Of a stretch of 31,493 nucleotides of DNA, positions 390-31,493 are shown piece by piece (position 1 is the stretch's first letter; every line of letters starts with the position of its first letter). A program made the position numbers and the translations under genes. Origin of the DNA: a virus. The stretch lies in the IMG/VR virus record IMGVR_UViG_3300042557_000130, positions 1 to 31,493 of that record; one strand, written 5' to 3'. The notes under the pieces were generated by a model. That model saw only the letters and a program-made list of their open reading frames with translations, was not told the origin of the DNA and ran no database searches.

Positions 390-1559
390 ATGAGTGAATT
401 TGTAGTTACTACTGCAATCAAAAAAATGTTGCGTTTAAACAAGCGTAAACGTATTATACAAGGTGGGACATCAGCAGGTAAAACTTTTGGTGTTCTGCCT
501 ATACTTATTGATAAAGCAATACGTGAACCTTTGCTTGAAATTAGTGTAGTATCAGAATCAATACCACATTTGCGTAGAGGTGCTTTAAAAGACTTCTTAA
601 AGATTATGATGATGACCAATAGGTATCGTGATATTCAATTTAACAAATCAACTTTAAAGTACACATTTGCCAATGGTAGTTACATTGAGTTCTTTAGTGT
701 TGACCAACCTGATAAACTACGAGGTGCAAGACGTAATATACTTTACATAAACGAATGTAACAATGTACCGTTTGAAGCATACAATCAACTTGCAATACGA
801 ACAAGTGGTGATATATGGTTGGACTATAACCCAACTAATGAATTTTGGGTACATAGAGAAGTTTTAAAGGACGAAGATTCTGAATTGATAGTACTTACTT
901 ATTTAGACAATGAAGCGTTACCACAATCAATAGTAAAAGAAATAGAACTTGCAAAAGCAAAAGCAGTTGATAATGAATATTGGGCAAATTGGTGGCAAGT
1001 ATATGGACTTGGTCAAGTAGGTCGTTTAGAAGGTGCTTGTATTCCTAATTGGTCTGAAATAGAATTACCACCTGAAGCAAGGTTATTGTGTTATGGTATG
1101 GACTTTGGTTATAGTGTTGACCCAACAAGTTTAATTGGTTTATATAAATACAACGATGCTTATATATTTGATGAAATCATTTATCAAAAAGGTTTATTGA
1201 ATAGCGATATAAACAACCTATTAAAAGCAAACAATATTACTGAAATGATTTACGCTGATTCTGCTGAACCTAAATCAATAGCTGAACTAAGTGGTTATGG
1301 TAATATGATATTGCCCGTTACAAAAGGTAGAGATAGCGTTATATACGGAATCAATTTAATGAATCAAAACAGAATATACGTAACAAGTAGAAGTAAGAAC
1401 TTAATAAAGGAATTAAGAAACTACACTTGGATGCAAGATAAAGAAGGCAATACACTTAATAAACCTATTGATGCTTTTAATCACGCTATTGATGCAGCAC
1501 GTTATGCGTTTACTTCACAGTTAGAGAATCCACACAAAGGAAACTATTATATATACTAA
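390..1559 (+). CDS. terL: Terminase large subunit, type A
   Basis: This 389-residue DNA-packaging motor has an N-terminal ATPase and a C-terminal nuclease. Walker A is GGTSAGKT (residues 25-32) and a Walker B-like strand is NILYINE (116-122) with Glu122 as the likely catalytic residue. The nuclease domain shows the usual acidic series: Asp238 in MDFGYSVDPT, Asp290 in IYADSAEP, and Asp361/Asp368 in DAFNHAIDAARYA. Length and motifs fit the PBSX-like large terminases. It overlaps the next gene by one base (TAATG). A different large terminase lies at 29933; only the last 13 residues or so (QLENPHKGNYYIY) are the same, so an exchange point falls inside the 3' end of the gene. Confidence 0.95.
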   Translation: MSEFVVTTAIKKMLRLNKRKRIIQGGTSAGKTFGVLPILIDKAIREPLLEISVVSESIPHLRRGALKDFLKIMMMTNRYRDIQFNKSTLKYTFANGSYIEFFSVDQPDKLRGARRNILYINECNNVPFEAYNQLAIRTSGDIWLDYNPTNEFWVHREVLKDEDSELIVLTYLDNEALPQSIVKEIELAKAKAVDNEYWANWWQVYGLGQVGRLEGACIPNWSEIELPPEARLLCYGMDFGYSVDPTSLIGLYKYNDAYIFDEIIYQKGLLNSDINNLLKANNITEMIYADSAEPKSIAELSGYGNMILPVTKGRDSVIYGINLMNQNRIYVTSRSKNLIKELRNYTWMQDKEGNTLNKPIDAFNHAIDAARYAFTSQLENPHKGNYYIY

Positions 1560-20734: not shown

Positions 20735-21310
20735 ATGAAACAATTAACATTAAACGAAAAGCTATCTAAAATTCAAGTAGAATTTAAAGCATCTAAAAGT
20801 AAATTTAACTCTTTTGGTAAATACAACTTCCGTTCTGCTGAAGATATATTAGAAGCATTAAAACCATTCAATGATAAATACGGAGTATCTTTTACTATTA
20901 ACGAAAGTTTAATTTGTGAAAACCCACCTGTATTGAAATCAACTGCAAGTATTATTGATAACAACGGAATTAACGTTATTAAAGCAATTGCAATTGTAGG
21001 AGTAGATTTACAACAAAAAGGTATGCAAGTTCCTCAGCAATATGGTTCAGCTTCATCTTATGGTAAAAAATACGCTTTAGGTAACTTATTACTTATTGAT
21101 GATACGCAAGATGCTGATGCAACTAATACGCACGGACGAGATGGTGCAAAAAGTGCGACAACTGAAGATGACCAAAAATGGTTAAACGTTAACACACCCG
21201 AGTTTACAAAAGCTATTGAATATTTAAAAAGTGGTGGAACTATTGAAGTTATCGAAAAAAAGTATAAATTAGCAGCCAAAACAAAACAAGAATTGTTAAA
21301 AGTTAAATAA
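20735..21310 (+). CDS. erf: ERF-family single-strand annealing protein
   Basis: This 191-residue ERF superfamily protein anneals complementary single strands during phage recombination and genome circularisation. Evidence is the N-terminal SFGKYNFRSAEDILEALKP and the family core QQYGSASSYGKKYAL followed by NLLLIDDTQDADA. The C-terminal quarter is helical and variable. It pairs functionally with the exonuclease at 27444, although the two lie 6 kb apart. The SSB-like gene follows. Confidence 0.88.
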   Translation: MKQLTLNEKLSKIQVEFKASKSKFNSFGKYNFRSAEDILEALKPFNDKYGVSFTINESLICENPPVLKSTASIIDNNGINVIKAIAIVGVDLQQKGMQVPQQYGSASSYGKKYALGNLLLIDDTQDADATNTHGRDGAKSATTEDDQKWLNVNTPEFTKAIEYLKSGGTIEVIEKKYKLAAKTKQELLKVK

Positions 21311-21363: not shown

Positions 21364-21669
21364 ATGAGTTCAATTATCAATTTGAGCATTAGAGTTGACA
21401 AACTACCTCGTGAAAAGTTTGTAATGGGTAAAGATAACGCAGTGTACTATAACTGTACATTAAACATTAACGATGAAGCAAACCAATGGGGTCAAAACGT
21501 ATCGTTAACTGATTCACAAACTAAAGAAGAACGTGATGCTAAAAAAGCTAAAAACTATTTAGGAAACGGAAACGTAGTTTGGACTGATGGAAACATTAAA
21601 GCAGTTAAAAAAGAAGGACAACCTGCAACACAACAAGCTGCAGCAGTAGAAGTGGATTTACCATTTTAA
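21364..21669 (+). CDS. SSB-like single-stranded DNA-binding protein
   Basis: This 101-residue protein has a beta-rich start (IINLSIRVDKLPREKF, VYYNCTLNIND, WGQNVSLTDSQ) like a small OB fold. A Gln/Ala linker leads to the acidic, hydrophobic tip EVDLPF, matching the C-terminal tip of bacterial SSB that binds partner proteins. It is shorter than host SSB (about 110-180). Location next to ERF supports the call. A terminator follows. Confidence 0.72.
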   Translation: MSSIINLSIRVDKLPREKFVMGKDNAVYYNCTLNINDEANQWGQNVSLTDSQTKEERDAKKAKNYLGNGNVVWTDGNIKAVKKEGQPATQQAAAVEVDLPF

Positions 21670-21716: not shown

Positions 21717-22868
21717 ATGAAAATAAATTTAACACATAAAATAAACAACGATAAATATACTGAATATATTTACGAAGCGTTTGATATACAAAATAAAGAT
21801 GAATCAAATGTAATTGTAGAAGCTAATTTAGAAAATTTACCAAAACAATGGAACATTGGTGTTGTATATGGTGGAAGTGGAACAGGTAAAACAACTATAT
21901 TAAAAAACTACTTTAAAAAAGAAATGGATAAATCATATTTTGATAATTCTAAATCTTTAATATCAAATTTTGATTGGTTAGAACCTAAAGATGCTACATT
22001 TTTATTATCAGCTATGGGATTGTCTTCCGTACCAACTTGGTTACGTCCATTCAATACATTATCTAATGGTGAACAATATCGTGCTAATCTTGCTTACATC
22101 GTAGGAAGTGCAAAAGAAAACGAAGTAATATTGATTGATGAATATACATCAGTAGTAGATAGAGATGTCGCTAAAGCTATGTCTAATGCGTTACAAAAAT
22201 ACATTAGACGAACAAACAAAAAAATTGTACTTGCATCTTGCCATTTTGACATTATGGAATGGTTACAACCTGATTGGATTTATTCACCATCAAAAGGGCG
22301 TCTTGAGATAGCGCCATCACTTCGGCAACCACAAATTGAACTTCAGATTGTTCGATGTAGATATGAAACTTGGAAACTATTCAAACAACATCATTATTTA
22401 ACAGAAGATTTAAATAAAGCTGCAACTAATTATTTAGTTTTATGGAACGAACAACCTATTGCTTTTATAGGTGTATTACCTTTTCCGGGTGTTGGAGATG
22501 AAAAAACAAGAAGAATCAGTAGAATTGTAGTATTGCCTGATTTTCAAGGTTTAGGTTTAGGTAAAAGCATTTTAAATTACATATCTTCTTTATATGCAAA
22601 AGATGAAAGTATAATGTATATTAGAACAATGTCACCTGCTTTAGGATTAGCACTTGCAAAAGATAATAATTGGATAGCAACATCTTCTAACTTAAAAATA
22701 CCGGGACAAGATTCAAGCGGAAGAAAAATGATTGAGCGACCAAGTTACAGTTATAAATATATTGGTGAAAAATCACAAGATGACTTGTCAATAATTAAAT
22801 TTAAAAGCGAAGTTTATAAAGATGTTGCACAAAATCAAATTAGTATTTTTGACATCTTAAATCAATAA
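21717..22868 (+). CDS. ABC ATPase-GNAT fusion protein
   Basis: This 383-residue two-domain protein begins with an ABC-type ATPase (residues 1-200): Walker A GGSGTGKTT (52-60), signature LSNGEQ (115-120), Walker B EVILIDEYT (136-144), D-loop SVVDRD and switch His176 in LASCH. There are no membrane segments, so it is not a transporter subunit. Residues 205-330 are GNAT-like, with motif A RISRIVVLPDFQGLGLG (266-282) for the acetyl-CoA pyrophosphate. Mu Mom, a DNA adenine modifier, is also GNAT-like, so DNA modification is a reasonable hypothesis; protein or small-molecule acylation is the alternative. It lies among DNA metabolism genes. Confidence 0.82.
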   Translation: MKINLTHKINNDKYTEYIYEAFDIQNKDESNVIVEANLENLPKQWNIGVVYGGSGTGKTTILKNYFKKEMDKSYFDNSKSLISNFDWLEPKDATFLLSAMGLSSVPTWLRPFNTLSNGEQYRANLAYIVGSAKENEVILIDEYTSVVDRDVAKAMSNALQKYIRRTNKKIVLASCHFDIMEWLQPDWIYSPSKGRLEIAPSLRQPQIELQIVRCRYETWKLFKQHHYLTEDLNKAATNYLVLWNEQPIAFIGVLPFPGVGDEKTRRISRIVVLPDFQGLGLGKSILNYISSLYAKDESIMYIRTMSPALGLALAKDNNWIATSSNLKIPGQDSSGRKMIERPSYSYKYIGEKSQDDLSIIKFKSEVYKDVAQNQISIFDILNQ

Positions 22869-22870
22869 CA

Positions 22871-23722
22871 ATGACAGAACAAGAAACAATCAATAGAATG
22901 TTAATGCAAGTACTTGAAGAAGATTGCTACATTGACCCTGAACAAGAAATAGAATATCCAATACCTGCTATTAGTTGTGGTGAAAAAGAATACGAAACTA
23001 AAGATGGTTATAAATCTTTTCCTATTCCAATAGGAACTTATGGTAACTTTTCATTTATACAAGCACCACCAAAGAGTAAAAAAACGTTCTTTATTTCGCT
23101 TTTAAGCGGTGTTTATATGAAAAATGAACTACAAGGTTTTGGTGGTAAATTACGCGGTAACAGGCAAGATAAACACGTTATTCATTTTGACACAGAGCAA
23201 GGGAATTTCCACGCATCGTTAGTTTTTAAAAGACCATTACAAATGACAGGCGATAAAGATGATAAATACCATACTTACGCATTACGCCAATTAGGTTTTA
23301 AAGAACGAGTTTCTTTTATTGAATATATACTTTACGATAAATTAGAAGGTAACGATATTGGTTTAGTTATTATTGATGGTGTTGCTGATTTATGTGCTGA
23401 TGTTAATAACATAGAACAAGCAAGTGAAGTTGTACAACATTTAATGCGATGGTCAAAAGAATTAAATTGCCATATTGTAACAGTTATTCACTCAAATTTT
23501 GGAACAGATAAACCAACGGGACATTTAGGTAGCTTTTTAGAAAAGAAAGCAGAAACACAAATACAATTAGAACTAAACACAGTTAATAAAGAACTTGTTA
23601 AAGTAAGTTGCAAAAGAAGTAGAAACGCAAGTTTTGAAGATTTTAACTTTAAAGTAAACAATTTTGGATTGCCACAAGTTGAGGGTGATTTATACGATAT
23701 ATTAAAAGACATCAAATGTTAA
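22871..23722 (+). CDS. RecA-like P-loop ATPase with altered Walker A
   Basis: This 283-residue protein is of the RecA/RepA/DnaB-like ATPase class. The P-loop is APPKSKKT (65-72), with Lys where the conserved Gly of GKT normally stands. A Walker B strand is GLVIIDG (164-170), a DTEQGN strand end lies at 107-112, and a sensor-like HIVTVIHSNFG follows. Such proteins act as phage helicases, loaders or recombinases. It follows the ABC-GNAT gene by two bases. The P-loop change occurs in a group of Bacteroidota homologues as I recall them, so it is probably not inactivating. Confidence 0.72.
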   Translation: MTEQETINRMLMQVLEEDCYIDPEQEIEYPIPAISCGEKEYETKDGYKSFPIPIGTYGNFSFIQAPPKSKKTFFISLLSGVYMKNELQGFGGKLRGNRQDKHVIHFDTEQGNFHASLVFKRPLQMTGDKDDKYHTYALRQLGFKERVSFIEYILYDKLEGNDIGLVIIDGVADLCADVNNIEQASEVVQHLMRWSKELNCHIVTVIHSNFGTDKPTGHLGSFLEKKAETQIQLELNTVNKELVKVSCKRSRNASFEDFNFKVNNFGLPQVEGDLYDILKDIKC

Positions 23723-29648: not shown

Positions 29649-29936
29649 ATGGAAAAAATAGACAAAAGAAAATTCAATGGTGGTAATAGCACTAAAACAA
29701 ATGGAGCAGACAAACGCAAGAATGAATATCGTTCTGCATTAGAACAAGCTGCAACAGTTGAAGATGTTATTGAAGTAATAAAGATGGTGCATACAAAAGC
29801 AGTATCAAAGCAAGACATAAAAGCAGCACAATTATTCTTGGAATACTATTTAGGAAAACCAAACCAAAGCATTGATATTAATTCAAGTGAAGGATTCAAT
29901 GTTAACTTTAGCGAATTGTTTAAATTTAAAGAATGA
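29649..29936 (+). CDS. terS: Terminase small subunit, type B
   Basis: This intact 95-residue protein has a basic Gly/Asn-rich start (MEKIDKRKFNGGNSTKTNG), then RKNEYRSALEQAATVEDVIE, and ends IKAAQLFLEYYLGKPNQS, a usual ending of the DNA-binding part of small terminases. I chose ATG 29649 over the in-frame TTG at 29634. It overlaps the large subunit by four bases. The type A subunit at 104 ends its helical part in a similar YYAGKP but is otherwise unlike it, so the two may recognise different packaging sites. Confidence 0.78.
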   Translation: MEKIDKRKFNGGNSTKTNGADKRKNEYRSALEQAATVEDVIEVIKMVHTKAVSKQDIKAAQLFLEYYLGKPNQSIDINSSEGFNVNFSELFKFKE

Positions 29937-31141
29937 TAAACATACATAGTAAGTATAAACCAATCGGAACTGCAGATAGTAGATACTTTGTAATCACAGG
30001 TGGTCGAGGTTCGGGTAAATCTTATTCTGTTAATTTACTTTTAACTATGCTTACTTATGAAAGTGGGCATACTATTCTATTTACAAGGTATACTTTAACA
30101 TCAGCTTATATTTCTATTATTCCCGAGTTTATAGATAAGATAAACACACTTGGTTTAAATGAAGACTTTCATATCACCAAAGAAGAAATAGTTAATTTAA
30201 GAACAGGAAGCAAGATTCTATTCAAAGGAATTAAAACATCAAGTGGTGACCAAACTGCAAACTTAAAATCTTTGCAAGGTGTTACTACTTGGGTATTAGA
30301 TGAAGCTGAAGAATTAACTGATGAATCAGTGTTTGATAAAATAGATTTATCTATTAGAAGTAAAGACAAACAAAATAGGGTAATACTTATATTGAATCCA
30401 ACAACTAAAGAGCATTGGATATACAATCGTTTCTTTGAAGGTAAAAGTATTAATGCAGGTGAGAATATAACCAAAGGTGATACAACGTTTATACACACAA
30501 CCTATGAAGATAACTTAGACAACCTTTCAGATTCTTTTATAAAGCAAATAGAAGATATTAAAAATAGAAGGCCTGAAAAGTTTAAGCATCAAATATTAGG
30601 TGGATGGTTAGATAAAGCTGAAGGTGTTATATTTACTAATTGGAAAATAGGAAAGTACGAACATATTGGCACAACTGTGTTTGGTCAAGATTTTGGATTT
30701 TCATCAGACCCAACAATTTTGGTGGAATGCAATATAGACACTTCTAACAAACGAATTTATATTAATGAATGCTTTTCATTACAAGGACTAACAACATCGC
30801 AGATATACAACTTAAATAAGCAATATGCAAATGATGCATTAATCGTTGCTGATTCTGCTGAACCAAGATTGATTAGTGAGTTATCTAATTTAGGTTTAAA
30901 CATAGTTCCAACAATTAAAGGTCAAGGTAGTGTTACTTACGGAATAAGCTTGCTACAAGATTATGATTTGATTGTAACGCCTGAATCAGTTAATTTAATC
31001 AAAGAGTTAAATAACTATTGTTGGTTGGAAAAGAAATCTAATACTCCAATAGATGCGCACAATCATATTTTGGATGGACTCAGATACGCAGTAAGTTATC
31101 AGTTAGAAAACCCACACAAAGGAAACTATTATATATACTAA
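29933..31141 (+). CDS. terL: Terminase large subunit, type B
   Basis: This 402-residue packaging motor has Walker A GGRGSGKS (23-30), Walker B TWVLDEAEE (119-127), a coupling motif region VILILNPTT (150-158), and nuclease acids Asp253 (GQDFGFSSDPT), Asp307 (VADSAEP), Asp374 and Asp381 (DAHNHILDGLRY). Motif order equals type A at 390, but most residues differ before the last section. The final 13 residues or so (QLENPHKGNYYIY) and the DNA from 31100 on match module A. It overlaps the next gene by one base. Confidence 0.95.
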   Translation: MINIHSKYKPIGTADSRYFVITGGRGSGKSYSVNLLLTMLTYESGHTILFTRYTLTSAYISIIPEFIDKINTLGLNEDFHITKEEIVNLRTGSKILFKGIKTSSGDQTANLKSLQGVTTWVLDEAEELTDESVFDKIDLSIRSKDKQNRVILILNPTTKEHWIYNRFFEGKSINAGENITKGDTTFIHTTYEDNLDNLSDSFIKQIEDIKNRRPEKFKHQILGGWLDKAEGVIFTNWKIGKYEHIGTTVFGQDFGFSSDPTILVECNIDTSNKRIYINECFSLQGLTTSQIYNLNKQYANDALIVADSAEPRLISELSNLGLNIVPTIKGQGSVTYGISLLQDYDLIVTPESVNLIKELNNYCWLEKKSNTPIDAHNHILDGLRYAVSYQLENPHKGNYYIY

Positions 31142-31302
31142 TGACATACGGCGAAATCATAGCAACAATAGAATGCTACATTTATTTAAAGACAAATAAC
31201 AATGTGCTAATAGCTATGCCACGTAATGTAGGTGAAATAAAGAAAATGAAATCAATGTATGAAGTAGCTAAACAAGAAGTTGCTTATATGCTGCAGGTTT
31301 AA
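31141..31302 (+). CDS. Small protein after terminase, second copy (53 aa)
   Basis: Counterpart of the gene at 1559-1720. It differs by Leu for Gln at residue 23 and by its last three residues (LQV versus VMC). Most base changes are at third codon positions, the mark of selection for the protein. Overlaps the terminase stop by one base. Confidence 0.8.
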   Translation: MTYGEIIATIECYIYLKTNNNVLIAMPRNVGEIKKMKSMYEVAKQEVAYMLQV

Positions 31303-31304
31303 AT

Positions 31305-31364
31305 GTTAAAGTTTTGTTAAAGTTTTAAAATACTTTTGTATTGTTAATAACAGTTGTATATTTG
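31305..31364 (+). promoter_or_regulatory. Second copy of the early promoter
   Basis: GTTAAAGTTTT stands twice at 31305-31315 and 31316-31326, TTG at 31336-31338 and TATATTTG at 31357-31364 with 18-base spacing, exactly as at 1716-1775. Confidence 0.8.
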
Positions 31365-31391
31365 CATATCAATATTTAACAAATAGAAATT

Positions 31392-31493
31392 ATGAGAACA
31401 ATCACAGGAGTATTATCAGCATCAATAGCAATGTCAAGCAACGATTATTTTGTTCAAGCAGCATTTGCATTATTAACCTTTTATTTAATATAT
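31392..31493 (+). CDS. Small membrane protein, 5' part only
   Basis: The first 34 residues of the 45-residue protein at 1803-1940, identical in sequence and cut by the window end. Confidence 0.85.
   Translation, partial: MRTITGVLSASIAMSSNDYFVQAAFALLTFYLIY

Follow-up and report, generated by a model that had tools for sequence, protein, structure and literature searches.

The ABC ATPase-GNAT gene and its surroundings

The window, by which we mean the whole stretch of 31,493 nucleotides analysed here (IMG/VR record IMGVR_UViG_3300042557_000130), contains at positions 21717-22868 an intact open reading frame with an ATG start, which encodes a protein of 383 residues in which an ABC ATPase is fused to a GNAT domain. 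The protein matches phrog_11143 over residues 1-354 (E 2.1e-144), with the C-terminal tail outside the match; phrog_11143 is the same orthologous family and has no function label attached. The gene lies on the plus strand, as do an ERF-like single-stranded DNA annealing protein upstream (20735-21310; PF04404, E 7.7e-30) and a RecA-like AAA_25 ATPase downstream (22871-23722; PF13481, E 1.6e-7). An earlier note on this DNA had described the gene as standing among ERF, SSB and RecA-like ATPase genes. The ERF and RecA-like assignments held, but the third gene (21364-21669, plus strand), whose product gave no significant Pfam match, is only possibly an SSB: it matched phrog_24909 (E 1.1e-6), which carries no function label, and it ends in an SSB-like DLPF.

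Two terminase large subunit genes lie at the ends of the window (390-1559 and 29933-31141), and their C-terminal parts are 40% identical. The 394 bases after these genes (1518-1904 against 31099-31493) are 94.7% identical, and at least the final 120 bases of the window are repeated without a mismatch close to its start. The genome is probably circular, and the overlap probably chimeric, contributed by a second strain.

Residues 1-204 (21717-22328) form the ABC ATPase (NBD) domain, which matched ABC-F and other ABC profiles. This domain contains a Walker A motif (YGGSGTGK, residues 51-58, 21867-21890), an ABC signature (LSNGEQ, residues 115-120, 22059-22076), a Walker B motif (VILIDE, residues 137-142, 22125-22142), a D-loop that reads SVVD and a switch histidine, H176 (22242-22244). 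In an alignment of 56 diverse family members, the switch histidine was invariant, as were G52, S54, G55, G57 and K58 of Walker A, L115, S116 and G118 of the signature, and D141 and E142 of Walker B. These motifs, together with the NBD fold, place the domain among the ABC ATPases, and confirm the earlier description of a soluble ABC ATPase with every key motif.

Residues 205-351 (22329-22769) form the GNAT acyltransferase domain, which matched Pfam Acetyltransf_1 (PF00583) with E 3.3e-8, exceeding the gathering score. The segment from Arg269, located before strand 4, through the acyl-CoA loop QGLGLG (residues 277-282) spans 22521-22562, and R269, V271, P274, Q277, G278 and G280 within it were invariant in the same 56 members. 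Also invariant was Tyr227 of an HHYL sequence (residues 225-228, 22389-22400), a candidate substrate-pocket motif positioned as the HYS of Mom. The acyl-CoA loop (Q/RxxGxG/A), the profile match and the fold are all those of the GNAT superfamily, in agreement with the earlier proposal of a fused GNAT domain with a good acetyl-CoA loop. Searches of NCBIfam gave only weak matches to rimI and to ABC-F and transporter models, far under their cut-offs.

The AlphaFold2 model of the full-length protein had a pLDDT of 91.4, with the C-terminal tail as its sole poorly predicted part, and the GNAT domain modelled alone had a pLDDT of 87.4. The top matches in a BFVD search were other members of the ABC-GNAT family. 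In comparisons with VIA-align, the N-terminal domain matched 6xji_C (Z 14.2, 171 aligned, rmsd 2.9) and 1l2t (Z 13.9); NBDs such as MJ0796, a tied match, and PmtCD scored Z approximately 14. The earlier note had imagined a DNA-scanning motor. This was not borne out, since the ABC part resembles ordinary NBDs, which are dimerising switches, and has no coiled-coil arm. The adjoining ERF and RecA-like genes in the window would fit an SbcC/Rad50-type factor in recombination or repair, with the GNAT domain in a structural or regulatory role. We consider this the least probable of the explanations weighed here, as the protein has neither a coiled coil nor a nuclease partner, the gene order around it varies within the window's clade, and the catalytic loop of the GNAT domain is invariant.

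The GNAT domain matched 1y9k (Z 14.0, 138 aligned, rmsd 3.2) in a generic list with many ties, in which RimI, Naa50 and IAA acetyltransferase were near the top and the solved Mom structure (8bv8) was outside the best 50 matches listed. As modelled, this is the fold of a generic acetyltransferase, and fold rank cannot name its substrate. The earlier note had counted a grouping of the GNAT domain with protein or antibiotic acetyltransferases against modification of DNA; this is half borne out, since generic acetyltransferases are the near neighbours, but their rank is silent on what is modified. The GNAT domain might acetylate a host or phage protein, such as RNA polymerase, a defence protein or terminase, in the manner of phiKMV Rac, with regulation by the ABC part. 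RimI, Naa50 and other protein N-acetyltransferases are its neighbours in fold and profile, and many phage GNATs have been predicted to modify host proteins (PMC7824862). However, modification of a protein would leave unexplained the pairing with ParB, the swap with Mom at a shared locus and the clamp-binding-like tail described below, and we regard it as unlikely.

Family distribution and the joining of the two halves

Relatives of the window protein were detected by tblastn in 73 phage records, with more than 580 further matches in viral contigs and more than 450 in contigs of bacterial and archaeal genomes. The relative in Tenacibaculum phage pT24 is 50.7% identical to the window protein at 96% coverage. 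ABC-coupled GNATs, with pT24 named, were predicted by Iyer, Aravind and colleagues in 2013, and again in 2021, to acylate DNA bases (PMC7824862), and the core idea of the earlier note is in outline this published prediction. Within open-access papers, we found no chemistry in print on the ABC-GNAT family, and in the paper on Leptospira LE4 we found no report of modified DNA.

Two family members have unusual gene structures. The pT24 gene (L002:2995-4167) contains an in-frame TGA in the part that codes for the GNAT domain, and its annotation divides it in two; this TGA may be a true stop, a site of recoding or a sequencing error, which are indistinguishable in the record. In a second case (L129:2699-4945), a LAGLIDADG intein lies within Walker A, between GPSGSGK and TTVARRAF.

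Both Walker B and HHYL could be placed in 255 loci, 245 of which encode them in a single frame and 10 out of frame. In nine of these ten (L006, L007, L095, L097, L098, L122 and L320-L322) the GNAT half is in the -1 frame, and in all nine the conserved start of the GNAT domain can already be read in this frame before the ABC frame reaches its stop, such that the two halves overlap. Five of the nine have a slippery heptamer at the linker: A AAA AAG in Enterococcus 9184, A AAG GGC in Oenococcus, T TTT TTT in two contigs and C CCC CCT in L122. At the linkers of the Lactococcus P335 locus, two Streptococcus-type loci and Thomasclavelia there are tetramers only, and the site of a shift is less clear. 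The idea that these split genes are simply broken was rejected on account of the preference for the -1 frame, the conserved GNAT start and the slippery heptamers. A programmed -1 frameshift that would yield both the ABC part alone and the ABC-GNAT protein is likely in these Bacillota phages, and the two halves appear to be kept together even across the -1 frame.

Recruiter candidates and exchange with Mom

Outside the window's clade, the ABC-GNAT gene is usually directly 3' of a gene encoding a ParB domain. It immediately preceded ABC-GNAT in 64 of 73 prophage loci, in 19 of 34 loci of the Jace-type set and in all six P335-type loci (the table of the P335 group has a seventh, which is the window itself and was kept out of this count); for phage-database loci the figure was 12 of 18 when a stand-alone form of the ParB C-terminal module is counted. 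The ParB gene overlaps the ABC-GNAT gene in 74 of 111 cases, and 109 of 111 ParBs paired with ABC-GNAT end in a common, private C-terminal module of approximately 40 amino acids. CxxC was present in the last 60 residues of none of the 111. In this they differ from the ParBs beside Mom (L173, L176), which terminate in a CPxC cysteine motif. The same ParB domain aligns with the phage DNA-methyltransferase family phrog_498, and in phages ParB folds can act as NTP switches that are fused to DNA methyltransferases (PMC12704722).

The module also occurs on its own. In Mu-like phages of Porphyromonas and Pseudomonas it is a separate gene of 42-49 amino acids that overlaps the start of the ABC-GNAT gene; the pair follows the tail genes and is itself followed by a formyltransferase-like gene. 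A 42 amino acid gene of a Porphyromonas phage tagged as an acr candidate (L010:3876-4004) is this stand-alone module (phrog_28816), which makes the label doubtful. Formyl_trans_N genes 3' of ABC-GNAT, often overlapping it, were present at L009:1823-2473, L010:5131-5604 and L094:5113-5730 and in L092 and L131. This formyltransferase-like neighbour may change the acyl group or its donor.

In many prophages, terminase genes are located just downstream of the cassette. This arrangement, seen in many phages as well, would be expected if ParB and ABC-GNAT marked or selected DNA for terminase, with acylation of a packaging protein as the trigger. However, terminase is not adjacent to the gene in Mu-like phages, jumbo phages or the window's clade, and DNA-modification genes, mom among them, belong to the late genes too; we consider a role in packaging or segregation quite improbable.

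In a tree of the family, the window was placed with a support of 0.93 within a clade of 50 representatives that have no ParB, which includes pT24, Vibrio vB_VmeM-32, Aeromonas PX29 and Nonlabens P12024S, the last being the nearest phage isolate at 71% identity. PF02195 (ParB) was not detected in any of 14 records, comprising the window and 13 others of its clade. Many members of this clade have a different feature, located in the low-confidence tail: a clamp-binding-like motif, which in the window protein is QISIF (residues 374-378, 22836-22850), ending five residues from the end of the protein. The consensus for binding the beta clamp is QL[S/D]LF, often C-terminal (PMC12309361, PMC4549789). 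Tails in the clade read QISLF, QLSLF, QLTLF and similar, and by sequence comparison QISIF can be classed as a conservative variant of the QL[S/D]LF or QxxLF pattern, with Ile at positions 2 and 4. Among the 50 clade representatives, 14 had the strict motif within their last 12 residues, compared with 0 of 71 others and 1 of 1758 neighbouring open reading frames. With the last 15 residues considered, 88 of 146 loci of the clade had the motif versus 2 of 138 others, and shuffled tails gave an expectation of 0.045 against 15 of 50 observed. Within the window's subclade, 14 of 16 members have such a motif. Points against a docking role are that the motif is short, that its conservation may partly reflect common descent, and that in the window it stands back from the extreme C-terminus.

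In two Arthrobacter phages, EastWest, which encodes ABC-GNAT, and Sonny, which encodes Mom, the DNA to either side of this locus is homologous. The left flank, which begins with the preceding gene and takes in the ParB domain, is 68% identical, and the right flank, with genes for a DNA-binding protein and a clamp, is 66% identical. Between these flanks, EastWest has the ParB tail module and ABC-GNAT, and Sonny has a cysteine ParB tail, a small gene and Mom; the junction lies between the ParB domain and its tail. Related Arthrobacter phages share the ParB, and 27 Arthrobacter records match Mom. In Microbacterium phage Antuna, ParB is likewise followed by Mom. By analogy, the EastWest/Sonny exchange suggests that ABC-GNAT has a Mom-like job on DNA, and this one clear case is the best evidence for it; it also suggests that each ParB tail module is tied to its own enzyme. 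Aeromonas phage PX29 (L004, L174) encodes both a Mom homolog and an ABC-GNAT protein.

Kinship with Mom, which the earlier note had suggested, was not supported by profile comparison: alignment of the GNAT domain with Mom by hhalign gave a probability of 1% (E 0.055) over 41 columns around HHYL/HYS only. Among the Mom motifs HYS, ELxR, S[FY]xD and YxAxN, only HY and the Arg have counterparts, found by eye, and the rest are absent. A QxxGxG loop is also missing from Mom, and the comparison does not support placing the GNAT domain in the Mom family. ABC-GNAT may work like Mom without being one.

Proposed function and comparison with known systems

The explanation we favour, to which we give a probability of roughly two in three, is that the protein is an ATP-gated acyltransferase acting on the bases of phage DNA, with the beta clamp as its recruiter in the window's clade and ParB elsewhere. 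The ABC part would dimerise when it binds ATP and act as a switch, either on DNA or on its recruiter; the GNAT part would pass an acyl group from acyl-CoA to the exocyclic amine of a base. In the window's clade, the C-terminal QISIF or QISLF tail would dock the enzyme on the bacterial beta sliding clamp during replication; in most other lineages, a ParB-domain protein would recruit it by the private C-terminal module. The predicted outcome is phage DNA that resists host nucleases. Protection from the phage's own nucleases, which the earlier note had added, found no support.

We infer DNA as the substrate, with a similar probability of about two in three, because of the pairing with ParB, the replacement by Mom, the adjacency to terminase in prophages and the clamp-like tail. 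The earlier proposal of a DNA-modifying enzyme is supported as probable by context; the sequence of the GNAT domain lends it no support: in both sequence and fold, this domain is nearer to generic protein or small-molecule acetyltransferases than to Mom, which argues against DNA. Since the window itself has no ParB, the strongest argument from context comes from relatives of approximately 28-45% identity.

These observations raise the broader possibility, which we put at somewhat under even odds, of a new class of DNA hypermodification, in which an ATP-switched acyltransferase acylates a base as DNA is copied, the recruiters (clamp peptide or ParB adapter) are interchangeable, and adapter and enzyme are swapped with Mom as a unit. 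The evidence suggests a general rule that phage DNA modifiers reach DNA by way of a clamp, which may be the host's sliding clamp or a protein with a ParB domain. A modified base of a new kind would give enzymologists a tool, and it could account for the ability of many phages to resist restriction. The family is widespread, the evidence points to DNA rather than protein, and members are carried by cultivable phages, among them Nonlabens P12024S, Pasteurella Pmp13, Lactococcus P335 and Arthrobacter EastWest.

The RNA cytidine acetyltransferases TmcA, NAT10 and Kre33 also consist of an ATPase joined to a GNAT, and they acylate an amine of a nucleobase. By the same logic, ABC-GNAT could acetylate host or phage RNA or tRNA, and weak matches to NAT10 profiles were observed (E 0.017 and 0.048). 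However, TmcA, NAT10 and Kre33 have a RecD-like helicase ATPase in place of an ABC ATPase, an RNA substrate and a GNAT of another family; no TmcA/NAT10 Pfam family was found for the GNAT domain at E up to 1, and the associations with ParB and clamp point to DNA. We give acetylation of RNA slightly less credence still than a role in packaging.

A closer parallel to an acyltransferase acting on DNA bases is the Mom/Com system of phage Mu, which methylcarbamoylates adenine. Mom shares with ABC-GNAT a GNAT-type fold, an HY motif that follows helix 1 and an Arg that precedes strand 4, as well as an upstream ParB gene in Antuna and Sonny and, in Arthrobacter phages, the same locus. The overlap of com with mom in Mu is comparable to that of the small gene with the start of ABC-GNAT in Mu-like phages. 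However, Mom lacks both the ABC ATPase and the normal acyl-CoA loop of ABC-GNAT, and the partner module of ABC-GNAT is a cysteine-poor domain of approximately 40 amino acids with no CxxC and no zinc finger.

For the proposed docking on a clamp, the precedent is T4 alpha-glucosyltransferase, a phage DNA-modifying enzyme that binds the sliding clamp gp45, although the extent of its modification is not determined by this binding (PMC13216743). Unlike ABC-GNAT, it glucosylates hydroxymethylcytosine, its clamp is phage-encoded and it has no ATPase.

The system predicted by Iyer et al. has the same domain combination as the window protein, and its pT24 member is homologous. The passage that treats it is silent on ParB modules, exchange with Mom, joining by frameshift and a clamp-like tail, some of which may have been mentioned earlier. 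Through its homology to pT24, the window protein fits the DNA-modification system predicted for ABC-GNATs.
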